Below, in pieces: positions 10,224 to 44,799 of a DNA stretch of 50,159 nt (positions are counted from its first letter, which is position 1; each line of letters begins with the position of its first letter). The notes under the pieces were generated by a model. It saw only the letters and a program-made list of their open reading frames with translations. It was not told the DNA's origin and searched no databases. Made by a program: the position numbers and the translations under genes. This stretch comes from Gemmatimonadota bacterium (GTDB taxonomy: Bacteria; Gemmatimonadota; Gemmatimonadetes; Gemmatimonadales; Gemmatimonadaceae). The DNA is taken from assembly GCA_003136975.1 (NCBI GenBank), contig PLEG01000017.1, positions 5,069 to 55,227 on the forward strand, in the 5' to 3' direction.

Positions 10224-13200
10224 TTAGAATTGATAGCTGAGACGCGTGAACCACTCGCGCGGTGCGGGCGTCGCGAAGACGTCCTCCAAAACGATCTGTG
10301 CAATATTTCCGGTTGCACCGAACGACGTTGCCTCCGGATCGGAACCCTTGTATGGTCCGCGATATTTCGTCCAAAGTGCGAGGTTGCGACCGCCGGCCGT
10401 AATAGTCATTCCCGTCGTACCGAGCCGACGAGCAAGTGACGATGGCACTGTGAGCGACGCCGAAAGTTCTTGCAGCCGAAGGAAGTCACCTTTCCGCGTG
10501 TAGTCAGGAAGAAAATTCGTCGGGCTGAATACTGCGCCACTGGTCTCGTGTACGTGCGTTCCGAACAGGCGCACCCTCTCCAGAGCTGTATAGCCACCCT
10601 GGGCTTCCGACAGTAAACGGTTCCCCGAGTTCGCCAACACGACATCGCGGTAGTAATCGGCGAAGTCATTCACCACGAAGCCCACCTTGCTTAGCATGAG
10701 CCCATACAGACGAAGGTTCTTGAACAGAGTGACCGTCGTGCTAAACGAGCCTTCGAACTTCGGCAGGACGGTACCATCGTACTCGAGGGTATCGCTCATC
10801 ACAGCTCTATTGTTCGCCACGTCGATACTCCGGAAGTGGTACGACGCCGTCGCACCGAGCGGTAAGCCCGGCTTGAACACTGTGTTCAGGTTGCCGAAAG
10901 GAGCGATACCACCCAGCGACACAAGTCTGTTCTTCAGCGTAGACGCGTTGGCGGTCATCTCCCACGCCAGATTGCTCCGATCAATGGCCGTAGCACGCAG
11001 TGACACTTCGATACCCTTGTTGGACACCTTACCGGCGTTAGCAAAGGTGTAGCCAGTCTGTCCGCTGGCGAACCCAAGCGATGGTGGCTGCGGTACCTGC
11101 AGCAGCAGATCCTTGGTCTCCTTGTCGAAGACAGTGAACTCGAGGTTCGCCCGCTCCCCCAAGAATGACGCGTCGAACCCGTACTCCAGTTCCGTACCAC
11201 GCTCCGGTTTAAGATTGGGATTGCCTGCATTCAGTAGACTGAGCCCGGGCAGAATTGCGCCACCGGCCCCGATATATGGTGCGGAACTGTAGGTAGCGAG
11301 CGTGGCACCCGGCACCGGGGAACGACCGGATGTGCCATACGCGGCGCGCAGCCGCAACGTCGGAATCACTGACGACACACCGCTCCAGAATGGCTCCTTG
11401 GAGACCACGTACGATACGCCCACTTTGGGGAGGATGAACGTCGGCGCGTTTTTACCGAATGATGAGTTCTTGTCGACGCGCGTGCCAAGCTGTAGGTAGA
11501 GACGATCACTGAACGAGAGATCCTCCTCGAAGATCAGGCCGAGCGATCGTTGATCCGTCTGCTGCTGGCCACTAATTGCGGTCTTTGCAGCGAGTCCGGC
11601 AAGATTATTGTCGTTCGTGAGCAAACCTTGGCCAAGCGTGGTGAGCACGCTGATACTCTGCTTCGTGTACTGGGCACCGACAGTGAAGTCTGATGACATC
11701 TGGCCAGTGGCTCCGAAGTCCCGATGGATCTTTCCTGCATAATCGATAGTGTACAATGTCTGGCCAGATGCTACGTCGTTAACCGACCCCGCTGCAGGCA
11801 CACCGGTACCCAGTGGGTTAATCGGTGTGAATAGATGCGCCTTGGTCTGATCGACATCCGCGCCAGCGGTTAGTCGGTGACTAAACCAAGGCAGTGGGCT
11901 AAAGTTGATTGTCATGTGCGGAGTTGACTTAATCGTGTAGTAGTCGCCGATGACAGTCGCGAGATATGACATGGGTGTTGTTGGATCTGCCAGACCGCCA
12001 GAGAGAGACCCATCTGCGTTCTGCGTAACCGTCGTCGGCCTACCCAAATACGCGTTCAACATGGGCGAGGCACTGCCTTGATCTCCTACGGGAAGCTTGT
12101 TGTCTGCAAGGCTGAGCCCGAATCCCGCATCGATCAGCAGCTTGGGCGTCGCTGTCCAGTTGAAATTCGTGCGCCCGTTCTGTCTCGTAATTGAATTATT
12201 GGACCTTGTTCCAGGCTCGTTGGTCGCGGCGACGGATGCGAAGTACCCATAATTCTCGCCTCGTCCTACAACGTTATAATTGAACTTCGCACCAGTTCCG
12301 TTGTGGAAAACGTTATCGCGCTTCAAGACGTTCGTCGATATGACCGTACCTGGTGCCAGACCTTTGCAGAGCACAGCGCTGCTTGTGGGCGCCACCAGCG
12401 CTGCTGAGCAGACGCCGTAGGTACTCGGTGGATCGAAACCGGGAGTCGAACCGACGACGTCAACCGTCGCCGTCGATGACATACGCTGCGCACCGTTTCT
12501 CCCTTTCTTGGTTATGATCTGGATAACGCCTGAGGATGCTTCAGCCCCATATAAAGTCGCAGCAGCGGGCCCCTTGACGACTTCCACGCTCTCGATGTCG
12601 TCAGGGTTCAGACCACTCAACGGATTCTGCTGCTGACCGCCGACATCGATGAGACTTCTGGGCGCCGCATCGACGCGCACTCCGTCGATGAACACAAGTG
12701 GGGTATTGGAGAGCGAGATCGTGGACGGACCGCGAATGTAGGTACGCGGTGCGGCGCCCGCCGAACTATTTGGGGCTACGATATTCGCGCTACCGACACG
12801 GCCAGCAAGCATCTGAGACACATCGGAGACAGGTGCCTTGCTCTGAACGTCTGCGGCGTTAACCGAAGCGATTACCGCGGGCTGCGACACCCGCGTTGCG
12901 GGCCCCACTGTTCCAGTGACAACCATCGCCGTAAGGCTGGTCGCCACTGCGGGGAGCACGAAATCAAGCGTCACGGAGCCATTGGCTGGAACCGTTACCG
13001 ACCTAGTCAACGGCTGGTAGCCGATGCGCCGCGCCGTCACGGTATGCTGTCCAGCAGTGACACCGGAAATGCGATAGGTTCCCTCGTTGCCGGTGGTGGC
13101 ACCGAGACCTGTTCCGTTAACCTGTAGAGTCACTGCTGCTAGCGGGGTGCTCCCACCCCCCTCGGTCACTCGGCCGATGATCGTACCCACATCAGCGTCA

Positions 13201-22287: not shown

Positions 22288-22363
22288 CGTGGATTCCCGC
22301 ATTCGCGGGAATGACGAGTCGTGCGACGGGGCGTGGATTCCCGCATTCGTGGGAATGACGAGT
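22288..22363. repeat. Two copies of a 32-bp REP/dRS3-like element, CGTGGATTCCCGCATTCGYGGGAATGACGAGT
   Basis: 22288-22319 and 22332-22363; both contain ATTCCC-N8-GGGAAT. Confidence 0.85.
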
Positions 22364-22382
22364 TCCCGGATCGTCGCGAAAT

Positions 22383-23042
22383 CTACTCGGCCAGTAATCC
22401 CAGCTTGAGCGCGAAGGCGATGTATTCCGCACGATGTGTCAGGCCCAGCTTGTCACCGATGCGTTGCTTGTAGGTGTCCACTGTCTTGGGACTGATGAAA
22501 AGCCGCTCGCCAATTTCGGGTGCTGAGTAGCCCTGAGCCGTGAGTCGCAGCACGTTCTGCTCGCGATCCGTCAGCCGCTCGAAACGCGCGCGTTCGGCGT
22601 TGAGCGGATCCTTCTTGGTTATTCCCTGCGCCAGAATCCGCGCGGCGCTCGGGCGGATGAACATGTCGCCGCGCGCGACTGTGCGAACTGCATCAACAAG
22701 CTCGCGATCAGCGGCGTTCTTCATGAGATATCCAGCAGCGCCCGCTTCCAGCACGGGCAACAGATAATCTTCCTCAGAGTGCATCGTTAGCACGAGCACG
22801 CGCGCGCGCAAGTGCTTTGCGATGATCTCGCGCGTAGCAGCCGTACCGTCCATTCGATCCATTGTCAGATCCATGATCACGACGTCCGGATCGAGCCGCT
22901 CGGCCAGCTCGACTGCTTCCGCGCCATCCGACGCCTCGCCAATGACTTCGATGTCAGGTGAAGCGCCAAGTACTGCTCGTAACCCGGCGCGTACCACCGC
23001 GTGGTCGTCAGCGAGGATCACGCGAATCGGGTCTGCACTCAT
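22383..23042 (-). CDS. NarL/FixJ-family response regulator (REC + LuxR HTH)
   Basis: VILADDHAVVRAGLRAVLGASPDIEVIGEASDGAEAVELAERLDPDVVIMDLTM; LTDREQNVLRLTAQGYSAPEIGERLFISPKTVDTYKQRIGDKLGL. Confidence 0.96.
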   Translation of the reverse strand: MSADPIRVILADDHAVVRAGLRAVLGASPDIEVIGEASDGAEAVELAERLDPDVVIMDLTMDRMDGTAATREIIAKHLRARVLVLTMHSEEDYLLPVLEAGAAGYLMKNAADRELVDAVRTVARGDMFIRPSAARILAQGITKKDPLNAERARFERLTDREQNVLRLTAQGYSAPEIGERLFISPKTVDTYKQRIGDKLGLTHRAEYIAFALKLGLLAE

Positions 23043-24319
23043 GTGTGAAGTCCAGCTAGAGGAGTGTACGGCGCATTGTGCAAAGGTACTGACGCCGACA
23101 CCGACGTGCCGCCGCCGAGCCTGCTGCGAATATGAAACTCGCCGTCCACGAGAGCTACGCGTTCCCGCATCGTGAACAGGCCTATGCCAGTCCGCTCATC
23201 CCTCAAGGCGTCCGGATCGAAGCCGCGTCCGTCGTCCATTACTTCGAGTGTCGCTGTCTCGTCATCGGTGCGCAGATTGATCTCGACGTGTTTGGGTACC
23301 GCGTGCCGGCGTGCGTTCTGAACCGCCTCCTGCGCTACTCGATAGAGCACCGACATCACCGGAGCGGGAATGGCTGCGTCGCTGCCTTCTCGTGCGATGA
23401 CGTCAATCACAACGCCATTGGCTTCGGCAGAATTCGCGAAGTTGGCCAGGTGATCCGTGGTGTCGCGAGCGAGCCGCTTGAGTGCCGCAATGAGTCCCAG
23501 GTCATCCAGGACTCGCGGATGCATGGTATGCGCGAGTAGGCGAACTTCCTCGAGCGTATTCGTCGCGAGCGTTCTAGCGTCTTCAATTCGCCCCTTGAGG
23601 ACTTCGCGAGAAGCGTTGTCCGCGCTCTGCGCGACGACACTCAGCTGCATTACCAACGCGGCCAGCGATTGCGCCGCCGAGTCGTGCAGCTCGCGCGATA
23701 TCGCGGCACGTTCCTTGTCGGAGGCATTGATGAGCTCAGTCGCGAGCCGGCGCGTGCGCGCACGGTCGGAGACCAGTCCGTCGAGCAGAATGTTGAACAT
23801 GCGCGCGACGCGTGTTACGTGACGATCCGCGAGTAGCGACGTGGGCACGCGCGCGTCAAGGTCACCGTGCCATATCGTGTCGACCGTCTTCTCGAGAACG
23901 CGCAGTGGACGCACAGCAAGCATTACGAGACCTGTGTTCAGCAGAAGCGCGGTAACAAAGGCGACGGTCACGACGGTGAGTACAGGTGCCGTACTCAATT
24001 CACGATGACGAATGACCAGCGCAGTGGCGGCAGCCGCAACGAGCAGGATGACATTGGCTCCGACCAGCTTTACCGGGAGCGGGGTGCGCAACAAACCGCG
24101 CAGCCACCGTGGAACGCCTGCGTACAGGCTGCCTGGAATGGCTGCCGGCGCCTCTTCGCATACCGAGCAGAGGCTATCTCCATCGTGGCTGGAAGGCCTC
24201 CCGGGCGTGACGAGGCCGCGCTCGAGCCGCGTCAGCAATGCCGCGGGCGGCATCGCCGGTGAACCGGTGTCACCGTGCCCAGTGCCCGGTATAGCCGTCA
24301 GTTTAGGGACCGCACTCAT
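23039..24319 (-). CDS. HisKA_3-type sensor histidine kinase with HAMP and N-terminal CxxC motif
   Basis: KERAAISRELHDSAAQSLAALVMQL; C-terminal HATPase (DDGRGFDPDALRDERTGIGLFTMRERVALVDGEFHIRSRLGGGTSVSASVPL); HAMP-like region; LCSVCEE; ATGA overlap with the response regulator. Confidence 0.94.
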   Translation of the reverse strand: MSAVPKLTAIPGTGHGDTGSPAMPPAALLTRLERGLVTPGRPSSHDGDSLCSVCEEAPAAIPGSLYAGVPRWLRGLLRTPLPVKLVGANVILLVAAAATALVIRHRELSTAPVLTVVTVAFVTALLLNTGLVMLAVRPLRVLEKTVDTIWHGDLDARVPTSLLADRHVTRVARMFNILLDGLVSDRARTRRLATELINASDKERAAISRELHDSAAQSLAALVMQLSVVAQSADNASREVLKGRIEDARTLATNTLEEVRLLAHTMHPRVLDDLGLIAALKRLARDTTDHLANFANSAEANGVVIDVIAREGSDAAIPAPVMSVLYRVAQEAVQNARRHAVPKHVEINLRTDDETATLEVMDDGRGFDPDALRDERTGIGLFTMRERVALVDGEFHIRSRLGGGTSVSASVPLHNAPYTPLAGLHT

Positions 24320-24376
24320 GGATCAAAGCTAGCTGTGTCTTGCGCTGTCCAAAGTCGGGGAGCAGCCACAAGATAG

Positions 24377-24393
24377 GTAAGGGATTCCCTTAT
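24377..24393. promoter_or_regulatory. Palindrome GTAAGGGATTCCCTTAT, candidate NarL/NreC-type operator
   Basis: TAAGGG-ATT-CCCTTA perfect dyad; matches 24973-24989 at 13 of 17 positions. Confidence 0.55.
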
Positions 24394-24551
24394 AATATGC
24401 GACTGGAGCGGGGCGGTGGGCTGCACGGGCGTATTCCCCTACAAAAATTCAGGCCGTCACTGACAGCGTCGCCCGCTTCCGGTTCCTAAACTGCGACATT
24501 CTGGTTTCCGGCCCAGGAAATCGACTTAACTCGGCCCACGGAGTGGCGGCG

Positions 24552-24968
24552 ATGGAGTGGTTCGTAAAAGCATTCTTGAAATCGAGCATCAGTTGGCTCG
24601 GCCTCGGCGTGACGCTGGGTGTCGCGATGGCGGTGCATCCGCAATTCATTGTCTACCGGCCGGCACACGTTCACATGAATCTGCTTGGCTTTGTAACGAT
24701 GATGATCTACGGCGTGGCGTATCATGTGATCCCGCGATTCACAGGTCACCAGCTCCGCAATCGTCGCCTTGCCGCGGTTCAGTGGTGGCTGGCGAACGCT
24801 GGTCTTCTTCTAATGGTCGTGGGCTTCTGTCTTGCACCGCACGCTGTTTCGGCGGCGCCTGTAGCGCTCGGCGCGGGCGGCGTTTTGTCGGCGACCGCGG
24901 CTTACTGCTTTGTGTACAATATCTGGCGCACAATAGACGGAGCACAACATCCAGCTGTGCGCACGTGA
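24552..24968 (+). CDS. Small haem-copper oxidase subunit I-like (CcoN/NorB-like) membrane protein
   Basis: Four TM segments; PAHVHMNLLGFVTMMIYGVAYHVIPRF with HCO-like histidines; upstream of nirK. Confidence 0.7.
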   Translation: MEWFVKAFLKSSISWLGLGVTLGVAMAVHPQFIVYRPAHVHMNLLGFVTMMIYGVAYHVIPRFTGHQLRNRRLAAVQWWLANAGLLLMVVGFCLAPHAVSAAPVALGAGGVLSATAAYCFVYNIWRTIDGAQHPAVRT

Positions 24969-24972
24969 TTTC

Positions 24973-25011
24973 GTAGGGGTTTTCCTTACCGCGACGGGGG
25001 AATTTTCCCTA
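24973..25011. promoter_or_regulatory. nirK upstream operator region: GTAGGGGTTTTCCTTAC (24973-24989) plus dyad GGGAATTTTCCC (24998-25009)
   Basis: Direct reading; same motif as 24377-24393. Confidence 0.5.
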
Positions 25012-25129
25012 GCATTTTTCAACTTTAGCCCGACAGATTTACGAGGCCGTTTGGCCTACGTTCCAGATGTCACACGCGGACACAACCGCACGCGAGAAGG
25101 TATGAGTCTCGCATCATCTGGAGAATATC

Positions 25130-26149
25130 ATGAAACGCACACAAGTCCTTTCAGCGCTCGTCATAACTGGTGTACTTACAGTCGGAGTGCTTGGATTTAC
25201 AGATAATGCAATCCGGTCTCACAAGATCGACCGGATTGACTTTGATAAGGTCGTAACCGCGACTACTCCGGTGTACGATGCCACGCTGCCGGAAGTGTCA
25301 GACGCGGGGATCAAGGAATTTCGCATTCCGATCAAGAACGCGGTCATCGAGATAGCGGACGGCGTGAAGTATCAGGGCTGGACATTCGGCGGTACCGTTC
25401 CGGGCCCTATCATTCACGTGCGAGAGGGCGATCACGTTCGCATCAACGTCGTCAATGAAGCTGACATGCCGCACTTTATCGACTTCCACGCTGCGCAGAT
25501 TGCGGCGAACGTTGCTTATCGAATGATACTCCCGAAAGATTCCGTGTCCTTCGAGTTCATCGCCCGCAATCCAGGCGCGTTCATGGTTCACTGCGGCACA
25601 CCGCCAGTGACCATGCACATCATGCAGGGGATGTATCTTCCGATCATCGTCGATCCAAAGGGCGGTTGGGGCACAAAGGCAGACAAGGAATTCGTGATAG
25701 TTCAGAGCGAGTTCTACACCCGGCCCACTGCTGACAGCACCGTGGTTCAGGCGGATTGGGATTCGGAGCGCGCGAAGCAGGCGAGCTATGTTGTCTTCAA
25801 CGGACGCGCGGGACAGTACAAGGCACACCCACTAAAGGTTGCCGTCGGCGACCGCGTGCGCTTCTACGTAGTCAATGCCGGCCCGAACTTCGATAGCGAT
25901 TTCCATCTCGTAGGTGCAATATTTGACCGGGTATATCCTGACGGCAATCCGCAGCATGCGCTGGAAGGCGTGCAGACTTACCCGGTACCCGCGGGCGGCG
26001 GTGTAGTATTCGAGGCGGTGTTCAACAAGGATGCGAGCGGCGAGGGTATCTATCCGTTCGTCACTCACTCTTTCGCGGACGCCGAGAAAGGCGCGGTCGG
26101 GATGATTCAGGTTGGGACACCGAAGCAGTTCACAACAATGTCGCACTAA
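25130..26149 (+). CDS. nirK: Copper-containing nitrite reductase
   Basis: MPHFIDFHAA (H-x2-D-x-H), FMVHCGTPPVTMHIMQGMY (type 1/2 Cu ligands), DFHLVGAIFD, VTHSF. Signal/TM N-terminus. Confidence 0.88.
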   Translation: MKRTQVLSALVITGVLTVGVLGFTDNAIRSHKIDRIDFDKVVTATTPVYDATLPEVSDAGIKEFRIPIKNAVIEIADGVKYQGWTFGGTVPGPIIHVREGDHVRINVVNEADMPHFIDFHAAQIAANVAYRMILPKDSVSFEFIARNPGAFMVHCGTPPVTMHIMQGMYLPIIVDPKGGWGTKADKEFVIVQSEFYTRPTADSTVVQADWDSERAKQASYVVFNGRAGQYKAHPLKVAVGDRVRFYVVNAGPNFDSDFHLVGAIFDRVYPDGNPQHALEGVQTYPVPAGGGVVFEAVFNKDASGEGIYPFVTHSFADAEKGAVGMIQVGTPKQFTTMSH

Positions 26150-26911: not shown

Positions 26912-27694
26912 ATGAGTGACCAATCGATCGCCGAGTTATGGGAATGGGCCGAGTATTACTGCCCGTGGTGTTACGTCGCCGCAGTGCGCCTGTATCGGGC
27001 GCAGAGGGAATACGAGGGCCGCGTTCGGGCTTTCACTCGTTTTTTCCCCCTGGAACTGGTGAACGGAGAGGAGCCGCCGCGCGACATCCTGGAACAGGAA
27101 TGGTGGCTCGCCGCCATGCAGGAGCCAGCCGCCTCGTTTGTCCCCTACACCGCGGCTGACTGGCCGACCACAACGCTCCCCGCCTTCGATGCGGTGTGGG
27201 CAGCGCGGCAGCAAGGTTGGAGTGTCGCGATGGATCTGGATCTCAGAATAAGGCGCGCATTCTTCGGAGAAAGCCGGAATATCGGCAAACCCGATGTCTT
27301 GTTGGAGATCGCGCGCGACGTCGAAATCGATTTCGCTCGCTTCGAGCGAGACTTCGCGAGCCCCGCCGCGCGTGTTGCCGTGACGGAGGAAAGTGCACTT
27401 GGCCGCGGGAAGTATGGAGTTCGTGGCACGCCGACACTGATGCTGGCTGATGGAACGCGGTTACGCACGCCGATCGCGATGCCAAAGATTCGCAATCGTA
27501 GAATTGTCTCGATGTCTCCGCTCACCTGCTTCGGTGATGGATGTGTGGATGAGACGCGAGCGCTGTTCGACGCGGCGATCGCACAAAGCCGGAGTGCCAA
27601 CCACGGCGCGGACGTGGCATCGGATAGTACGATCGACAGCTTTCCGGCGAGCGACGTTCCGGCGTGGTCGCCGCTTATCGCTGGTGGTCCGTGA
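26912..27694 (+). CDS. DsbA/FrnE-like thioredoxin-fold protein
   Basis: WAEYYCPWCYVAAVRLYRAQREY; ALGRGKYGVRGTPTLMLADG; C-terminal extension. Confidence 0.82.
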   Translation: MSDQSIAELWEWAEYYCPWCYVAAVRLYRAQREYEGRVRAFTRFFPLELVNGEEPPRDILEQEWWLAAMQEPAASFVPYTAADWPTTTLPAFDAVWAARQQGWSVAMDLDLRIRRAFFGESRNIGKPDVLLEIARDVEIDFARFERDFASPAARVAVTEESALGRGKYGVRGTPTLMLADGTRLRTPIAMPKIRNRRIVSMSPLTCFGDGCVDETRALFDAAIAQSRSANHGADVASDSTIDSFPASDVPAWSPLIAGGP

Positions 27695-27696
27695 CG

Positions 27697-28413
27697 ATGG
27701 AGAGATCGTCGAACGAGTCATCGGCTGACGTTGCGGCACTGCTTCGCCGACTTCCGATTTTTTCCGAGCTCGATGAGCCGGTCATTCGCCAGCTCGCGGA
27801 TCGGTGTGTCGCCCGCGATTTTGCTGTAGGGCGCGTTCTGTTCGCCGCTGGCGACGCCTGCCGCGGTTTGTATGTGATCGAGACTGGACGGGTGCGCATT
27901 TATCGAACGAGTCCGGACGGCAAGGAGCAGGTTCTTCATATCGAAGGGCCAGGCCGTCCTGTTGCGGAGCTGCCGCTGTTTGATGGAGGCGTATACCCGG
28001 CGTCCGCGATCACGGCAGAGCCGTCGCGTCTGATCTTCCTCGCCAGAGACGATTTCGAATCGATGTACAGAACGCATCCGGATGTTGCGCAGGCGATAAT
28101 CCGCGGATTGGGCAAGAGATTGAGACATCTCGTTCACGTCACCGAGACTCTCGCATTCCATGATGTCGCGGCGCGTCTCGCGATGTTGTTCGTTGGATAC
28201 GCGGAACGTGCAGGGACGAAAACGGCGGCTGGTATCGAGCTGACGATTGATCGCACGCAGGAAGAGTTGTCGCTGGAGATCGGGACGGCGCGGGAGTCGG
28301 TATCGCGCGCCATGCGACAATTGAAGCGTGGCGGGTTGATAGAGTCGCTGTCCCGCAGCCGGATGCTCATTCCAGACGTCGCCAAGCTGTGGGCTCGCGC
28401 ACAGGGACGTTAG
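27697..28413 (+). CDS. Crp/Fnr-family transcriptional regulator (no FNR-type N-terminal Cys cluster)
   Basis: cNMP-binding fold (GRVLFAAGDACRGLYVIETGRVRIYRTSPDGKEQVLHIEGPG); HTH EELSLEIGTARESVSRAMRQLKRGGLI. Confidence 0.93.
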   Translation: MERSSNESSADVAALLRRLPIFSELDEPVIRQLADRCVARDFAVGRVLFAAGDACRGLYVIETGRVRIYRTSPDGKEQVLHIEGPGRPVAELPLFDGGVYPASAITAEPSRLIFLARDDFESMYRTHPDVAQAIIRGLGKRLRHLVHVTETLAFHDVAARLAMLFVGYAERAGTKTAAGIELTIDRTQEELSLEIGTARESVSRAMRQLKRGGLIESLSRSRMLIPDVAKLWARAQGR

Positions 28414-35566: not shown

Positions 35567-35732
35567 CCACGGCAAGCCCAATTTCTGGCGGAACCGCCCC
35601 AACCAGGCGTACGGACTCGAGCCGATTCTGGCTGCGACGGATGTCACGATCGCGCCTGGTCGGGGATTCCCTCATGAATTTTCCACCTTCCCCCGACTAA
35701 ATCGAGTGGAGGAAATGGCATAGGTTTCTGCA

Positions 35733-37247
35733 ATGATTACTGCGTCTGAACGTGTTGCGCTTCCGCCCGTCATTCAGGGTGGAATGGGAGTGGGGGTCTC
35801 GAACTGGATGCTCGCGCGAGCTGTCGCTCAGAGGGGACAGCTCGGCGTGGTATCGGGGACGGCGCTTGACACGGTGTTCGTGCGACGCCTGCAGGATGGC
35901 GATCCAGGCGACCATATGCGGCGTGCGATCGATCACTTTCCTATCCCGCAAGTGGGCGCGGACGCGCTGAAGCGCTATTTCCTTGACGGCGGCAGAGCAC
36001 CAGGCCAGCCGTATAAGATGCTCCCCATGTACAAGCAGGTAGTGAGTGTTGCGCGCCAGCAGATCACAATGCTCGCCAACTTCGTGGAGGTGTACCTGGC
36101 GAAGGAAGGCCACGACGGTGTGGTGGGCGTGAATCTTCTCACGAAAGTCCAATTGCCCAATCTCGCGTCGTTGTGTGGCGCGATGCTCGCTGGCGTTGAT
36201 TACGTGTTGATGGGTGCGGGGATACCGCGCGAGATACCTGGCGTGCTTGACGCTTTCGCGGAACACCGCACCGCCTCGATCAGGTTCGACGTCGAAGGAG
36301 TGCCGTCCGCCGAGCCTGAGTATCTCACGTTCGACCCGCAGGCCCACGGCGTTGGTCTGGACATACCGATGAAGCGGCCCCGTTTCATCGCAATCGTCGC
36401 GGCCAGCTCGCTAGCTGCGACACTTGCACGGAAGGCGAATGGGCGCGTCGATGGCTTTGTGGTCGAGGGTCCAACCGCCGGCGGCCACAACGCGCCGCCC
36501 CGCGGCAAGTTGCAGCTTGACGAAAGAGGAGAGGCAATTTACGGAGAGCGCGACGCTGTCGATCTGGAGAAAATTATGGCTCTTGGCGTTCCGTTCTGGC
36601 TTGCCGGAGGATATGGTTCGCCCGAGAAGCTTGCGGAAGCGCTAAACGCGGGAGCGACAGGCGTGCAGGTCGGTACGGCATTTGCATTCTGCGACGAGTC
36701 AGGCCTAAAGAACGACTACAAGCGGGCACTCTTGGAAAAGGTCCGTTCGGGCACGGCACGAGTATTCACCGACTCAGTGGCTTCACCGACAAGTTTCCCA
36801 TTCAAAGTTGCACAATTGGAAGGGTCGCTTTCCGAGGACCAAGTCTATTCCGCTCGCCCCCGCATCTGTGACCTGGGTTATTTGCGCGAAGCATACAGAA
36901 CGCCGTCGGGAGCGATCGACTACCGCTGCTCCGCAGAACCCGTGACCACGTATTTGTCAAAGGGCGGACGGCTCGAAGACACATCGGGGAAGAAATGCCT
37001 CTGCAACGCTCTCCTGGCGAACATCGGACACCCGCAGGTACGAAACGGAAAATACACCGAGCAGGCTCTGATTACCTCGGGAAATGACTTGGTGGGTGTC
37101 GATCGGTTCCTGCGGCCTGGTGCCTCAACTTACAGCGCGGCGGATGTGATTGCGAAACTGATAACCGGCGTCGGCTCTCGCGTCAGGTCAAGCGGAGATG
37201 CGAGCCATCCGCGTCCAGCTTGTGCTCGTGACCTAAGTCATTGCTGA
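35733..37247 (+). CDS. Nitronate monooxygenase/2-nitropropane dioxygenase-like flavoprotein
   Basis: PPVIQGGMGVGVSNWMLARAVAQRGQLGVVSGTALD; GFVVEGPTAGGHNAPPRG; FWLAGGYGSPEKLAEALNAGATGVQVGTAFAF. Confidence 0.85.
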   Translation: MITASERVALPPVIQGGMGVGVSNWMLARAVAQRGQLGVVSGTALDTVFVRRLQDGDPGDHMRRAIDHFPIPQVGADALKRYFLDGGRAPGQPYKMLPMYKQVVSVARQQITMLANFVEVYLAKEGHDGVVGVNLLTKVQLPNLASLCGAMLAGVDYVLMGAGIPREIPGVLDAFAEHRTASIRFDVEGVPSAEPEYLTFDPQAHGVGLDIPMKRPRFIAIVAASSLAATLARKANGRVDGFVVEGPTAGGHNAPPRGKLQLDERGEAIYGERDAVDLEKIMALGVPFWLAGGYGSPEKLAEALNAGATGVQVGTAFAFCDESGLKNDYKRALLEKVRSGTARVFTDSVASPTSFPFKVAQLEGSLSEDQVYSARPRICDLGYLREAYRTPSGAIDYRCSAEPVTTYLSKGGRLEDTSGKKCLCNALLANIGHPQVRNGKYTEQALITSGNDLVGVDRFLRPGASTYSAADVIAKLITGVGSRVRSSGDASHPRPACARDLSHC

Positions 37248-37275: not shown

Positions 37276-37617
37276 GTGAATTCCCCCATGGGGTACCAAC
37301 TGGGGAGGACAGGAGAGGTGTGCGTGGTGGTCGGCAAATGGATGCCCATCATTCTTGCGGATCAATGCACAGGATGTGGTTTGTGTGAGGACGCTTGCGG
37401 TCCCAAGTCTTTAGCAATGGTGGACGGGCTTGCGGTGCTTGTGCTCCCAGATACATGCGGAAGTGAGGAGCATTGCATCTCGGCTTGCCGCGACGAAGCC
37501 ATCCAAATGGCTTGGCTGCCCTTCTCCGGAGACAGAGCCATCGGTCGATGGAGCGATGAAACGGAGCGAGAAGCAGTGACAAAGAATCCTGACGGCAGCG
37601 ATTCCTTGGGAGATTAG
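37276..37617 (+). CDS. Ferredoxin-type Fe-S protein
   Basis: IILADQCTGCGLCEDACGPK and DTCGSEEHCISACRDEAI; start uncertain (GTG 37276 or ATG 37342). Confidence 0.75.
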   Translation: MNSPMGYQLGRTGEVCVVVGKWMPIILADQCTGCGLCEDACGPKSLAMVDGLAVLVLPDTCGSEEHCISACRDEAIQMAWLPFSGDRAIGRWSDETEREAVTKNPDGSDSLGD

Positions 37618-37679
37618 GCATCAACTATTTTTCGATGAACGGCTGTGTCGCCCGTGAATTCCGCGATTTTGTCAGAGCG

Positions 37680-37997
37680 CTAACGCCGCGACTTATCTGC
37701 CATCCAAGTGAAGGCACGGGTGGCCGCGGGCAAGCCCAGGGTACTCACGGCCAGCACGGCAACATGGTTAATTTCTGCTGTCGTGACGCCCGACTTCCGC
37801 GCATTTCGGACCGCGGAATGCGTCGCGCCTTCCAGGCCCGCGCCAATCGAGAGAGCGACCTTTACCAAACGCCTGGTCTTTTCGTCCAGCGGACCTGCAT
37901 CGTGGCACTGGTCACCTAGTTGATTGAAGGCTTTCCATACATCAGGATAGCGCTTCCTGAAGTCCTGCACAGGTTTTGGCAATGATCCTCGCGGCAT
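37680..37997 (-). CDS. Carboxymuconolactone decarboxylase (AhpD-like) family protein
   Basis: YPDVWKAFNQLGDQCHDAGPLDEKTRRLVKVALSIGAGLEGATHSAVRNARKSGVTTAEINHVAVLA. Confidence 0.88.
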   Translation of the reverse strand: MPRGSLPKPVQDFRKRYPDVWKAFNQLGDQCHDAGPLDEKTRRLVKVALSIGAGLEGATHSAVRNARKSGVTTAEINHVAVLAVSTLGLPAATRAFTWMADKSRR

Positions 37998-38112
37998 TTG
38001 CGTGATCCCCTCTCATGGTTCTTGACCCTATCTCTAGATTAGCGCATTTCCACCTCTCTTCACGGTTCGCGAATCGCCGAGAATGCGGTGAATGGAGTCG
38101 GTCGGGGTGTAT

Positions 38113-38155
38113 ATCGTGTCGCGACGCGATCACACGCAAGTGTGATCCTAATCAC
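38113..38155. promoter_or_regulatory. Stacked operator-like dyads upstream of rrf2-nar-act
   Basis: ATCGTGTCGCGACGCGAT (38113-38130, 16/18 symmetric), GATCACAC-GCAA-GTGTGATC (38128-38147, perfect 8-bp arms), GTGAT-CCTA-ATCAC (38142-38155). Confidence 0.65.
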
Positions 38156-38230
38156 GCAGATATAGGACAACAATCACAGACGCGATTAGTCGGAGGAGAT
38201 TAAAAAGACTTGTACATCCAGAGATCAACA

Positions 38231-38698
38231 ATGCTCTCCACTACTTCGGAATATGCTCTCAGGGCTCTGGCGCATCTGGCAGGTCAGCCTCAAGGGGCGG
38301 CCCTTCTGGGCAGAGATCTCGCCAAGGCGGCGGACATCCCCGCAAACTACCTCTCCAAGATCCTGCTCACGCTGCGCAATGCCAAGCTAGTGGATACGAC
38401 TCGAGGTTCAGGCGGTGGGTATCGTCTGCATAGGCCAGCGGGAGAGATCTTCTTGATCGACGTGGTCGAATTGTTTGACGGTATATCTCGAAATAAGCCG
38501 GCCTGTTTTCTCCAACACCAGAAGCCGTGTTCGAGTACGTCCTCCTGCAACGCCCATATTTTGTGGGCCGACGTCCAAGCAAGATACCTGGGTTTCTTGG
38601 TTTCCACTCCGCTCTCAACCCTGGCTCCGCAAATGCCACCCCCCGGCGGTATTTCTCCGTATGCCGCGGATCTTCCAGTTGCAGGAGGTCAGGGATGA
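38231..38698 (+). CDS. Rrf2-family transcriptional regulator (NsrR/IscR-like, three conserved-type Cys)
   Basis: MLSTTSEYALRALAHLAGQ...LAKAADIPANYLSKILLTLRNAKLVDTTRGSGGGYRLHRPAGEIFLIDVVELFDG; CFLQHQKPCSSTSSC. Confidence 0.92.
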   Translation: MLSTTSEYALRALAHLAGQPQGAALLGRDLAKAADIPANYLSKILLTLRNAKLVDTTRGSGGGYRLHRPAGEIFLIDVVELFDGISRNKPACFLQHQKPCSSTSSCNAHILWADVQARYLGFLVSTPLSTLAPQMPPPGGISPYAADLPVAGGQG

Positions 38699-39597
38699 AA
38701 TCGAGCTACGGACTGCGCAATCGGGGCACGGCAGAGACGAAGCCTTTTCTGTGCTCACGCGTTCCTCTTGTCATTGCCGCGCTGGCGGTCCTTCTGTTCT
38801 GTGCAAATGCGAACTCTTGGGGGCAGGACGCCGCAGCATTCTTCAAGCAGAACTGTACGAGTTGTCACACCATTGGTGGCGGGCGGCTCACCGGGCCAGA
38901 TCTCAAGGACGTTACGACTCGCAAGGATCGTGCGTGGTTTGTCCAGTTCCTGCAGAGCCCGAAAGCAATAATCGATAGCGGTGATCCCTACGCCGCGAAG
39001 CTGCAGCAGGAAGCACGCGGCGTCGTGATGCCGAACATTGCGAACCTGAGCCCACAGCAGGCGCAGGCGCTGCTCGACATGATTGCTGCCGAATCCAAGC
39101 TGCCGCGCTCGCAGTTCGCTGGAATGCAGATCAGCGACCGCCCGCTGACGGCGCAGGACGTGGCGAAAGGGAAGCTGGTTTTTCTGGGTGAGCAGCGGTT
39201 GAGCGGTGGCGGCCCGGCGTGCATGTCCTGTCACACGATGAAAGGACTGACGTTGCTCGGCGGCGGACGGCTCGGTCCCGATCTCACACGGGTTTATGAG
39301 CGGCTGCTGGGGCGCAAGGGATTGGCGGCGTGGTTGTCGTCGCCGGCAAGTCCCACGATGTCACCGGTATTCAAAGACCACGCGATCCAGCCCGATGAGA
39401 TCCTCTCGCTCGTGGCCCTATTTGAAGACTCCGCGAAAAAAGGCGGGCAGGATGACACTACTTCGTTGCTGAATTTCTTCCTGCTCGGAGTGGGCGGCAT
39501 GGTGCTGGGCCTGATTTCGCTGGACGCGCTTTGGAAAACGCGGCTTCGGGGAGTGCGCCGGAGCATGGTCCACAAAGACGACCGAGGTGAAGGATGA
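38695..39597 (+). CDS. Membrane-anchored dihaem cytochrome c (NarC-like position)
   Basis: Signal anchor, CTSCH and CMSCH haem motifs, C-terminal TM; ATGA overlap with rrf2 and with narG. Confidence 0.9.
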
Positions 39598-42500
39598 AAA
39601 CCCGAGACGCGATCTCGTGGATCCGGGACGAAGTCGATCCCAAGCTGCGCAATTGGGAGGAGTTCTACCGCAACCGCTGGCAGCACGACAAGATCGTGCG
39701 CTCGACGCATGGCGTGAACTGCACGGGCGGCTGCACCTGGCAGATCCACGTCAAGGACGGCATCGTCACCTGGGAAATGCAGGGACTGGATTATCCTCTG
39801 CTCGAAAGCGGCCTTCCTCCCTATGAGCCGCGTGGCTGTCAGCGCGGTATTTCCTACTCCTGGTACCTCTACAGCCCGCTGAGGGTGAAGTACCCATATG
39901 TGCGGGGCGCGTTGCTCGATCTGTGGAAGCAGGCCCGGGCTCGGCACGAGGATCCGGTCGAGGCGTGGAAGTCACTGGTGGAGAATCCCGAGTCGCGGCA
40001 GCGCTGGCAGAAGGCCCGGGGCAAAGGCGGTCTGCGCCGCGCCGACTGGGACACCATGCTGGAGTTGATCGCGGCCGCCAACATCTACACCATCAAGAAG
40101 CATGGGCCGGATCGCATTGCAGGGTTTTCACGCATTCCTGCGATGTCGATGATCAGTTACGCCAGTGGCGCCCGGATGCTGCAATTGATGGGCGGAGTGT
40201 CCCTTTCTTTCTACGACTGGTATTCCGATCTGCCTTCGGCCTCACCTGAGACCTGGGGCGAGCAAACGGATGTGCAGGAATCGGCCGACTGGTACAATGC
40301 AAAACTGCTGGCGGTGGTGGGCTCCAATCTGAACATGACCCGCACGCCCGATTGCCACTTCGCCGCAGAAGCTCGTCACAACGGCTCGAAGATGTGGGTC
40401 TTCTCGCCGGACTTCTCTCAGGTCTCGAAGTACGCCGACGAGTGGGTGGCGATCAATGCGGGACAGGACGGGGCCTGGTGGATGGCGGTGAACCACGTCC
40501 TGCTCAAGGAATTCCATCATGAAAAGAAAATCCCATATTTTCTGAACTATGCGAAACAGTACACCGATTCGCCCTACCTGGTGGAACTCACAGAACACGA
40601 CGGGAAGTGGCAGGCGGGGAAGTTGCTTCGGGCCAACCGGTTGGATGGCTACAAAGACATAGAGAACGGCGACTGGAAATTCCTCATGTGGGATGCGGCT
40701 GCGAACCGGCCGAAGATGCCGATGGGCAGCTCTGGCTTCCGTTGGGGAAAAGAGAAAGGCAAGTGGAACCTGCTGCTGAAAGACGGCGTCGATGGCTCGG
40801 CCATCGACCCCATCCTGACTTTTCTGGAGCAGAGCGATGGGGTAGTTCCCGTGGCGCTGAATGACTTCGGCGACGGGCGCACGCTCACCCGCTCTGTACC
40901 GGTACGACGTGTCAAGAGTGCGAGCGGAGAGACAGTAACCGTCACCACGGTTTACGACCTGCTGATGGCGCAGTACGGAGTGTCGCGCGGGCTGGAGGGC
41001 GAGTATCCCGCAAACTACGACGACGAGAGCCAGCCCTACACGCCTGCCTGGACCGAAAAATACACGGGCATCAGCCGGCAAGTATTGCTGCGTTTCGCTC
41101 GCGAATGGGCGAGCACGGCGGAACTCACCAACGGCAAGTGCACGGTGATCATCGGCGCCGGCATCAATCACTGGTACCACGCCAACCTGATGTATCGCTC
41201 CGCGATCCACGCCTTGATGTTCTGCGGCTGCATCGGCGTGAACGGCGGGGGATTGGCGCACTACGTCGGACAGGAAAAACTGGCGCCGGGAGAACCGTGG
41301 TCGGCGATTGCGTTTGGCCGCGACTGGTTCCCCGCGGCCCGGCTGCAGAATGCGCCTAGCTGGCACTATGTGCATACAGACCAATGGCGCTACGAGCGCG
41401 ACTTTACCGACTACCACACGGTTCCTCCTGCCAACGGCAACGGGTCGTCCTCCGCGAACCTTGCTCATGGACACACCATGGACCTGCAGGTGCGAGCGGT
41501 GCGCTCGGGATGGCTGCCGTTCTATCCGCAATTTCAGAAGAGCCCGTTGGAGGTGGTGAAAGAAGCGGAAGCCTCCGGAGCCAAGAGCGACGAAGCGGTT
41601 GTGAACTATGCAGTGGAGCAACTGAAAGACCGCAAGCTGAAGTTCTCAGTGGAAGATCCGGACGCGCCGGAGAACTGGCCGCGGATATGGTACATCTGGC
41701 GCGGCAATGCGCTTATGGCCAGCGCCAAGGGGCACGAGTATTTTCTCAAGCACTACCTGGGCACACACAACAACGCGATCTCCGATGACAACTTGGCGGA
41801 AGGCAGTGCGCGCGAGGTGGAATGGCACAAGAACGCACCCCAGGGAAAGATGGACCTGGTGGTGGACCTCAACTTCCGCATGGACACGTCCGCGCTCTAC
41901 TCGGACATCATTTTGCCCGCCGCTACCTGGTACGAGAAGGCCGACCTGAACACCACCGACATGCACAGCTTCATCCATCCGTTGTCGGCGGCCGTGCCGC
42001 CGGCCTGGGAGTCCAAGAGCGACTGGCAAATCTTCCGCGCGATCGCGAAGAAGTTCTCGGAACTGGCGGAGAAGCATTTCCCCGAGCCGGTGAAAGATCT
42101 GGTGGCCTCGCCCTTGGCGCACGATTCGGCGGCGGAGATCGCGCAGCCCGACATCAAGGACTGGCTGAGCGGAGAAGTGGAAGCCATTCCGGGCAAAACC
42201 ATGCCGGGATTGAAGGTGGTTACGCGCGATTACAAGAACCTCTATAAGCAGTACATCTCTTTCGGTCCACTGGCGCGGTCGGGCGGACTGGGAGCGCACG
42301 GCACGCACTACGGGATTGAGGACGAATACGACGCGGCCCTCAAGACGTGTCCGACGGTTGCGTGGGACGGCAAGAAGTATCCATCGCTGCTCGAAGACGA
42401 GCAGGCCTGCAACATCGTTCTGCGCTTCGCCAGCGTAACCAACGGCGAACTCGCGTATCGCTCCTACAAGGAGATGGAAGAAAAAGCGGGCGTGCCCCTG

Positions 42501-43253
42501 GTGCACCTGGCGGAGAAGAACCGCGGGGTACGACTGAGCTACAAGGACTTGCAGGCACATCCGCATCGCTTGCTCAACAGCCCCATGTGGTCTGGGCTGA
42601 CCGAGAACGGACGCGCTTACTCACCCTTCACCTACAACGTGGAGTGCCTGATGCCGTGGCGCACGCTAACCGGGCGGCAGCATTTCTATCTCGACCATCC
42701 GCTTTACATCCAGTTCGGCGAACACCTGCCGACGTACAAGCCCAAGCCGTTACCCACACAGTATGCCGACCTGAAGTTCAGCAAGGAAGTTGGGAAGACC
42801 AAGATGCTTAACTACCTGACGCCGCACGGGAAGTGGCATATCCATTCGACTTACGGCGACAACCAGCGCATGACCACGCTGTCGCGCGGGGTCGAGCCGT
42901 TCTGGATTAACGACAAGGACGCAGCCGAAATCGACATCGTGGACAACGACTGGGTCGAAGTGCACAACGACAACGGAGTCGTGGTCACGCGTGCCGCCGT
43001 CAGTGCCCGTATTCCGCGGGGCATTTGCATTCAGTATCACTCGCCGGAGCGCACTTACTCGGTGCCGACTTCACCATTGCGCGGCAACCGGCGTGCTGGC
43101 GGCCACAACAGCCTCACACGCACGCGGCTAAAGCCGAACCTGATGGCAGGCGGCTATGGACAATTCACTTTTCACTTTAATTACTGGGGCCCGACCGGAT
43201 GTAACCGCGATACGCACGTGCTGGTGCGCAAGCTGCCGGAATTGAAGTGGTAA
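39594..43253 (+). CDS. narG: Respiratory nitrate reductase alpha subunit
   Basis: [40 protein letters not shown]; 1219 aa, no Tat signal; followed by narHJI. Confidence 0.97.
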
Positions 43254-43273
43254 CTGTGCGCTTCGACGAAGCA

Positions 43274-43306
43274 ACTGAGAACCGACAACCGGGAATTGAG
43301 AACTGA
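43274..43306. repeat. Degenerate GAGAACTGA-type low-complexity repeat between narG and narH
   Basis: actgagaaccgacaaccgggaattgagaactga. Confidence 0.6.
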
Positions 43307-43308
43307 CC

Positions 43309-44799
43309 ATGAATGTACGCTCGCAAGTTTCGATGGTGTTTCACCTCGACAAGTGCATTGGTTGCCACACCTGCTCGATCGCCTGCAAGAACATCTGGAC
43401 CGATCGCAAAGGCACGGAATACATGTGGTGGAACAACGTGGAAACCAAGCCCGGCACGGGTTTCCCCACGCGTTGGGAAGACCAGGAGCGGTACAAAGGC
43501 GGCTGGGAAAAGAAGAATGGCGATCTTGAGCTCAAGTCCCAGAACAAGAGTAGCGCCCTGTTCAACATTTTCCACAATCCCAACCAGCCCACCCTGGACG
43601 ATTACTACGAGCCGTGGACCTACGATTACCAGAACCTGTTCAATGCTCCCGAAGGTGCGGACCAGCCCACGGCCAAGCCGATCTCCATGATCACGGGCGA
43701 GTACATCAATGTGGAAGCCGGACCGAACTGGGATGACGACCTGGGCGGGTCGCCGGTGTACGCGCAGAACGATCCGAACCTGGAGAGCCTGACACCCGAG
43801 CAGCGCGAGCAACTCTTCGCTACCGAGCGCCTGGTGTTCTTCTACTTTCCGCGCATCTGCAATCACTGTCTAAATCCGGCGTGCGTGGCGGCGTGTCCGT
43901 CGGGCGCGCTCTACAAACGCGGGGAAGACGGCATCGTGCTGATCGACCAGAAGCGCTGCCGGGGTTGGCGTGCCTGCGTGGCCGCGTGCCCGTATAAGAA
44001 GACCTATTTCAACTGGTCCACCGGAAAATCGGAGAAGTGCATCCTGTGCTATCCGCGCCTGGAAACCGGGCAAGCGCCGGCATGTTTCCACTCTTGCGTC
44101 GGACGAATTCGCTACCTCGGCGTGTTGCTCTACGACGCGGCACGAATCGAGGAAGTTGCCAAGCTGCCGGACGATCAGCTGATTGAAGGACAGCGCTCAC
44201 TCATTCTCGATCCTTTCGATCCTGAAGTGATCGCGGGGGCTCGGGCCAATGGAATACACGACTCGGTCGTCGAATCGGCGCAGAAGTCTCCCGTCTACCA
44301 GTTTGTGAAGGTCTGGAAGCTGGCGTTGCCGCCCCACCTCGAATACCGAACCTTCCCGATGCTGTTCTATGTGCCGCCGATGTCGCCGGTCATGGCAAGC
44401 AAAGAGGGCGGTGTGATCGACCATGTGTCGGGTGACCTATTCCACGATATCGAGCAGTCGCGCGTTCCCGTGGCCTATCTGGCCAAGCTGCTGGGTGCGG
44501 GCCAGGAAAACAAAGTGCGCTACGCCCTGCGCAAACAAAAAGCGGTGCGCTGGTACCGGCGCGCGTTGACCGTAGGCGACGTGACGATGGAAGTCTCCAG
44601 CCGCATGCTGGCTGAGGCGGACTGCTCGTCCGAGGAGGCTGAGGCGATCTACCGGCTCACTTCGCTCTGCACCTTTGAAGACCGCTTCGTGATTCCGCCG
44701 ATGCACCGCGAAGAAGCGATCCAGATGATGGAAGATCCGCTGGAGCACAAGGCCAGTGCGGGCTTCGGTTTTGTCAGCGGGCCACAGAGGGGAATGTGA
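43309..44799 (+). CDS. narH: Respiratory nitrate reductase beta subunit
   Basis: HLDKCIGCHTCSIACKNIWT; CNHCLNPACVAACPSGALYKRGEDGIVLIDQKRCRGWRACVAACPYKKTYFNW; KCILCYPRLETGQAPACFHSC. Confidence 0.98.
   Translation: MNVRSQVSMVFHLDKCIGCHTCSIACKNIWTDRKGTEYMWWNNVETKPGTGFPTRWEDQERYKGGWEKKNGDLELKSQNKSSALFNIFHNPNQPTLDDYYEPWTYDYQNLFNAPEGADQPTAKPISMITGEYINVEAGPNWDDDLGGSPVYAQNDPNLESLTPEQREQLFATERLVFFYFPRICNHCLNPACVAACPSGALYKRGEDGIVLIDQKRCRGWRACVAACPYKKTYFNWSTGKSEKCILCYPRLETGQAPACFHSCVGRIRYLGVLLYDAARIEEVAKLPDDQLIEGQRSLILDPFDPEVIAGARANGIHDSVVESAQKSPVYQFVKVWKLALPPHLEYRTFPMLFYVPPMSPVMASKEGGVIDHVSGDLFHDIEQSRVPVAYLAKLLGAGQENKVRYALRKQKAVRWYRRALTVGDVTMEVSSRMLAEADCSSEEAEAIYRLTSLCTFEDRFVIPPMHREEAIQMMEDPLEHKASAGFGFVSGPQRGM

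Follow-up and report, generated by a model that had tools for sequence, protein, structure and literature searches.

A 17-bp palindrome, GTMRGGnWWWnCCYKAC, is very probably the operator at which a NarL-type response regulator, the product of the gene at 22383-23042, would exert class II-type activation of a regulon. The motif, its positions, the array that extends from it, its conservation, and its link to the regulator gene can be established from the DNA sequence; binding, phosphorylation, activation, and the signal are inferred. In the mechanism that we propose, the partner kinase would phosphorylate the regulator, probably in response to oxygen limitation or to a shift in the redox state of the membrane. 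Regulator dimers would then occupy the full palindrome and, cooperatively, the half-sites that follow it on the gene side every 22 bp (two helical turns). The last of these, whose end is separated by 22 bp from a -10-like [TC]ANNTT element, would take the place of the -35 box, and the regulator bound there would recruit RNA polymerase in the manner of class II activators. Putative targets in its own genome are its own operon, nirK, a nitronate-monooxygenase (NMO)-like gene (starting at 35733), and a multicopper-oxidase-like gene located near nosZ, with a COX1-like gene as a less certain addition; in relatives, the cbb3 oxidase (ccoNO) and nosZ would be added. The initial annotation of this DNA had proposed that a shared palindrome mediates autoregulation of the two-component system and control of nirK; new here are the 22-bp-phased arrays pointing at the gene, the 22 bp that separate them from [TC]ANNTT, and the wider regulon.

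Genes and palindromes of the window

The window, i.e., the whole stretch of 50,159 bp that was analyzed (G000:C301:5069-55227), belongs to a Gemmatimonadaceae MAG of 3.65 Mb in 414 contigs. On the minus strand lie the genes of the NarL-subfamily response regulator (22383-23042; Response_reg and GerE domains, from Pfam, NCBIfam, and the translation), the inferred binder of the motif, and of a HisKA_3/HATPase_c sensor kinase with two transmembrane helices and a short loop (23039-24319; Pfam, hydropathy, and alignment), which overlap as in an operon. The plus strand encodes a small COX1/CcoN-like membrane protein of 141 aa (24543-24968; Pfam), the copper nitrite reductase-like nirK (25130-26149; Pfam and NCBIfam), a CRP/FNR-type regulator 1.5 kb downstream of nirK (27664-28413; Pfam and NCBIfam), and the NMO-like protein (35733-37247; Pfam PF03060). 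The NirK of the window scores 192 bits against TIGR02376, not reaching the cutoff of 296, and its closest named relatives are from Gemmatimonadaceae and Gemmatimonadetes MAGs. A REP-like palindromic repeat, GTGGATTCCCGCATTCGYGGGAATGACGAGT, is present in two copies (22290-22365) downstream of the regulator gene, and a similar repeat also lies beside a nirK remnant in G076, a relative described below.

All four sequences quoted in the initial annotation were found exactly where it had placed them: GTAAGGGATTCCCTTAT in the kinase-regulator promoter (P1, 24377-24393, no strand assigned), GTAGGGGTTTTCCTTAC in the nirK promoter (P2, 24973-24989, plus strand), a further dyad, GGGAATTTTCCC (24998-25009), and a half-site, ATTCCCCTAC (24433-24442, plus strand). 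The IUPAC word given there was derived from P1 and P2 themselves, and its zero-mismatch matches are circular for that reason. We scored sites with a palindromic weight matrix trained on 20 kinase-promoter sites, all from other genomes. With this matrix P1 and P2 score 22.6 and 22.8, and the next best match in the 50 kb, GTCGGGGATTCCCTCAT (P3, 35659-35675, plus strand), scores 17.0; shuffled windows (40 shuffles) contained a mean of 0.05 matches at a score of at least 17 and none at 20 or above.

The center of P3 lies 66 bp upstream of the NMO-like gene, and the corresponding distance is 67 bp for the orthologs in G030 and G055; this gene is a predicted regulon member. A nitrate-reductase-type cluster occupies 37276-44799, with a cytochrome c (38527), a molybdopterin subunit (39594), and a NarH-like subunit (43309); it was probably acquired, since narH is present in only 3 of 118 family genomes. 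We considered this cluster as the target of P3 and rejected it, given the rarity of narH, the absence of the site at the nar locus of G011, and the position of the site at the nar locus of G029, where it lies 388 bp before another gene. The NMO-like gene is the better candidate.

The initial annotation had also held that a genome-wide frequency no higher than expected by chance would refute the motif. A strict word, GTMRGGNWWWNCCYKAC, occurs 71 times in the 118 family genomes versus 15 times for its reversed control, whereas a loose word, without the AT core and with one mismatch allowed, is not over-represented in the source genome (58 versus 109 for the reversed control). Raw abundance is weak evidence; the strong signal is positional, in which leaders carry the site and at what distance.

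Conservation of the site and its inferred binder

Lack of conservation upstream of orthologous nirK genes would likewise have spoken against the motif, but the kinase-trained matrix detects sites in 17 of 18 orthologous leaders, L067 being the exception. Where nirK is not beside the kinase, 12 of 13 leaders score at least 10, compared with a mean of 3% for column-permuted matrices, and with the kinase-trained matrix a site was found in 1 of 12 leaders of distant nirK-like paralogs. An anchored comparison was used for the nirK leaders; MAFFT alignment misplaced the sites. Sites are also present in 32 of 50 nosZ leaders (64% at a score of at least 10 versus 2% for the permuted matrix) and in 27 of 30 leaders of the fused cbb3 oxidase gene ccoNO (shuffle P ≤ 0.01), including those of G022 and other Gemmatimonas-like genomes; the same matrix found none in 28 leaders of the control gene mrp. 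Strict sites additionally precede genes for UspA-like (L162), radical SAM, Rieske, cytochrome b, and YceI-like proteins, a multiheme cytochrome, and other NarL-type regulators, the identities of these genes being taken from their sequences. No clear nearby site was seen in 18 of 50 nosZ leaders and about 21 of 49 kinase leaders; the matrix was trained on kinase leaders, which makes the statistic for that set partly circular, and leaders of related species are not independent.

One locus of G020 (L184, contig C36, 3554-16304) forms a regulatory island, with six matrix sites within 13 kb that precede genes for a kinase, a NarL-type regulator, a CheB-like protein, a YceI-like protein, and nirK. 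P1 and P2 are 596 bp apart in the window, and the corresponding two sites are 31 to 38 bp apart in relatives. The longer distance reflects a rearrangement, as the COX1-like protein, which is encoded between P1 and P2 in the window, is found elsewhere in the neighborhood in G030 and G055 (L224, 15389-15787; L225, 13728-14123; 85% identical).

Three lines of evidence bear on the identity of the binding protein. P1 is conserved upstream of kinase orthologs in many genera, and outside the family the site also stands upstream of the paired kinase and regulator genes in f2, f4, f5, and f7. Five g24 species carry the regulator gene without an adjacent kinase, with a near-perfect palindrome 73 to 74 bp upstream. 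In G076 (L181, G076:C64, about 12,390-12,590), nirK is a 3' remnant directly beside the kinase promoter, which keeps a perfect palindrome, GTAGGGGAATCCCCTAC; this is a natural loss of nirK with the operator kept. Because solo regulator genes, the pairs of other families, and G076 all retain the site, these comparisons point to the response regulator at 22383-23042 as its likely binder, although binding itself is inferred. Both functional proposals of the initial annotation gain support in this way: autoregulation from the sites at kinase orthologs, at solo regulator genes, and at the kinase of the nirK-less relative, without binding or expression data, and control of nirK from the orthologous leaders, including those away from the kinase, on sequence evidence only.

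The recognition helix of the regulator, ISPKTVDTYKQRI (from the translation), is nearly identical across the regulator family and identical in several NarL-type paralogs, so that paralogs may share the site. Relatives of the regulator at E ≤ 1e-45 occur in 99 of 118 family genomes; the kinase, at 140 bits or more, occurs in fewer (63 genomes), and in many genomes no more than about 15 kb separates it from nirK or nosZ. It is possible, if somewhat unlikely, that the main binder is another NarL-type regulator, a paralog whose recognition helix is the same (for example, that on contig C18, with 59% identity), and that the adjacent pair is only one of several regulators that share the site. A number of genomes have two or more such regulators with identical recognition helices, sites precede other NarL-type regulators without a kinase (L112, L114, and L155), and Gemmatimonas proper (g23) has a regulator gene without a site and no kinase, yet keeps the ccoNO site. 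What favors the adjacent regulator over such a paralog is that the site is repeatedly attached to that regulator's own operon, also where the regulator gene stands alone and in families other than this one.

Phased half-sites and the -10-like element

The leaders share a spacing that extends beyond the palindrome. In each of three sets (nosZ, kinase, and ccoNO), the best offset for a second site is +22 bp, on the side of the gene, and exceeds 100 of 100 flank shuffles; in the small solo-regulator set, it is +22 in one calculation and +23 in another, for which only three leaders were usable. Half-sites of the form C[CT][GT]AC end at +44 to +46 in nirK leaders (12 of 16 at 45 ± 1), and half-sites ending at about +22 are present in 7 of 16, against a shuffle maximum of 4. 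From the last half-site to [TC]ANNTT the spacing is 22 bp in 18 leaders, with the next best spacing found in 3; in the ccoNO leaders of g23, a half-site at +22 is followed 20 bp further by CCTA.

Within the window, this grammar fits the kinase, nirK, and NMO-like genes, and less certainly the COX1-like gene. At the kinase, the half-site CCCCGAC (24354-24360, minus strand) ends 23 bp downstream of P1, a spacing identical in L179-L182, and a -10-like TAGCTT (24326-24331, minus strand) starts 22 bp further on and ends 6 nt short of the ATG, four relatives being alike. At nirK, the second array element, TTCCCTAG (25005-25012, plus strand), ends at +23 and the third, CCGAC in the context GCCCGAC (25030-25034, plus strand), at +45; a -10-like TACGTT (25057-25062, plus strand) starts 22 bp after the third element, and the predicted transcription start is near 25069. 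At the NMO-like gene, CCCCGAC (35691-35697, plus strand) is at +22 from P3, and a -10-like TAGGTT (35721-35726, plus strand) lies 6 nt before the ATG. With only 6 nt between the -10-like element and the start codon, leaderless mRNAs are predicted for the kinase and NMO-like genes. Towards the COX1-like gene, the half-site at 24433-24442 is the first element of a series that continues with CACTGAC (24458-24464, plus strand; +22 from 24442) and a -10-like TAAACT (24487-24492, plus strand; +22 from 24464); no counterpart of this series was found at the COX1-like copies of G030 and G055. The further dyad and the half-site reported in the initial annotation are thus real, but their reading has to be amended: the dyad at 24998-25009 overlaps the middle element of the nirK array, and the half-site opens the COX1-like series.

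Elsewhere in the source genome, the palindrome upstream of the multicopper-oxidase-like gene near nosZ (contig C66) shows the full grammar, as does a similar palindrome in G030. The grammar is absent from chance palindromes inside genes. A strong palindrome (score 19.2) was also observed on contig C6 (L221, 959-975), between fatty-acid desaturase and aldo/keto reductase genes; neither this palindrome nor one on contig C387 has the array or the -10 grammar.

Only the position of the sites is known, and autoregulatory sites can be negative; the regulator may therefore repress through them, for instance by negative autoregulation. We consider this unlikely, because the last half-site in nirK and kinase leaders stands at the -35 position, a rigid 22 bp from the -10 element, which is the layout of class II activation, and because a primary site 44 to 45 bp further upstream would be unusual for a repressor. 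Activation by the NarL-type regulator also has to be weighed against control of nirK by the CRP/FNR-type regulator at 27664-28413, with the palindromes incidental. Regulators of this type control nirK in many bacteria, and the gene is close to nirK; even so, this explanation is very improbable, as the TTGAY-N4-RTCAA box occurs in 0 of 17 nirK and 0 of 50 nosZ leaders, whereas the GTMRGG palindrome is conserved. Readings of the palindromes as chance dyads or as an RNA-level hairpin are scarcely credible even though short palindromes are common in GC-rich DNA and the loose word is not enriched genome-wide, since conservation is specific to leader, position, and spacing, the negative controls are clean, and a transcript that starts from the -10 element would not include sites located upstream of it.

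Signal input and comparison with known systems

With binding inferred, the site looks like the docking site of an undescribed Gemmatimonadota master switch for low-oxygen and N2O respiration; we found no published account of a regulator or motif of this kind in Gemmatimonadota in the open-access literature. Gemmatimonadota are important soil N2O consumers. Their nosZ genes reportedly appear to rank with the most abundant ones in soil (PMC10581226), and in cultured G. aurantiaca N2O reduction has been tied to prior O2 availability (PMC9530729). Our analysis provides a named regulator gene, an operator with an explicit grammar, and a list of targets, testable also in cultured Gemmatimonas, and it suggests that high-affinity O2 respiration and N2O and nitrite reduction are linked to one switch. 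We regard it as an evenly balanced question whether this holds in its broadest form, in which a class-wide NarL-type regulator would be the main low-oxygen respiration switch of Gemmatimonadota, in the role of FNR/FixJ, with 22-bp-phased operator arrays replacing the -35 box, cbb3 oxidase, N2O reductase, and nitrite reductase controlled together, and an intramembrane-sensing kinase whose input is unknown.

The two transmembrane helices and short loop of the kinase are accompanied by a HAMP-like linker; Pfam identified only HisKA_3 and HATPase_c-type domains and no PAS or GAF domain. A CxxC at residues 51-54 was considered as an Fe-S sensor and rejected as not conserved: of 18 kinases compared, only those of the window and G076 have it. 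The wider inferred regulon (cbb3 oxidase, nosZ, the NMO-like gene, and others) makes hypoxia or membrane redox a more plausible guess for the signal than nitrate.

The initial annotation had called the system NarL/NreC-like. Membership of the NarL subfamily is borne out (PF00072, 92.9 bits; PF00196, 60.1 bits), but the regulator is not an ortholog of NarL, NarP, or NreC, and the kinase lacks the sensor domains of NarX and NreB. Against the NCBIfam models, the regulator scores 153.8 for NarL (cutoff, 250) and 121.9 for NarP (cutoff, 343), and the kinase scores 75.9 for NarX (cutoff, 578) and 70.8 for NarQ (cutoff, 553). The closest full-length solved structures to the regulator are VraR (147 bits), NarL (1a04; 124 bits), and DevR (3c3w; 113 bits).

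By analogy, DosR/DevR of Mycobacterium tuberculosis would be the closest functional counterpart. It is likewise a NarL-subfamily regulator, with hypoxic targets that include a universal stress protein (here, the UspA-like L162), and its palindromes are of the GGG..CCC type. As in a DosR-like regulon, the palindromes found here, often tandem, precede hypoxic respiratory genes and the regulator itself. DosR/DevR promoters have one or more boxes, and a weaker site next to a box is bound cooperatively (PMC3029386). The two systems differ in the palindrome and its outer bases, in the GAF (heme/redox) sensor of the DosS/DosT type, which is absent from the window kinase, and in the regulon, which here comprises cbb3, NosZ, and NirK behind a rigid 22-bp array leading to a [TC]ANNTT -10 element.

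Enterobacterial NarXL and NarQP have a regulator of the same subfamily. The consensus NarL site consists of heptamers in a 7-2-7 layout; the site described here has no NarL heptamers so arranged, and the window kinase has no NarX-type sensor region. NreBC of Staphylococcus shares the layout of a sensor kinase with a NarL-type regulator, and phosphorylated NreC reportedly binds a palindromic, GC-rich region at narGHIJ, nir, and narT; NreB, however, is a [4Fe-4S] O2 sensor (PMC8139620), and the window kinase has two transmembrane helices, no conserved cysteines, and no PAS-family match. The intramembrane-sensing systems LiaSR and VraSR differ in their targets, which are cell-envelope stress genes rather than the respiratory genes found here, but they share the kinase architecture of two transmembrane helices and a short loop, and the window kinase scores 93.5 bits against the LiaS model.
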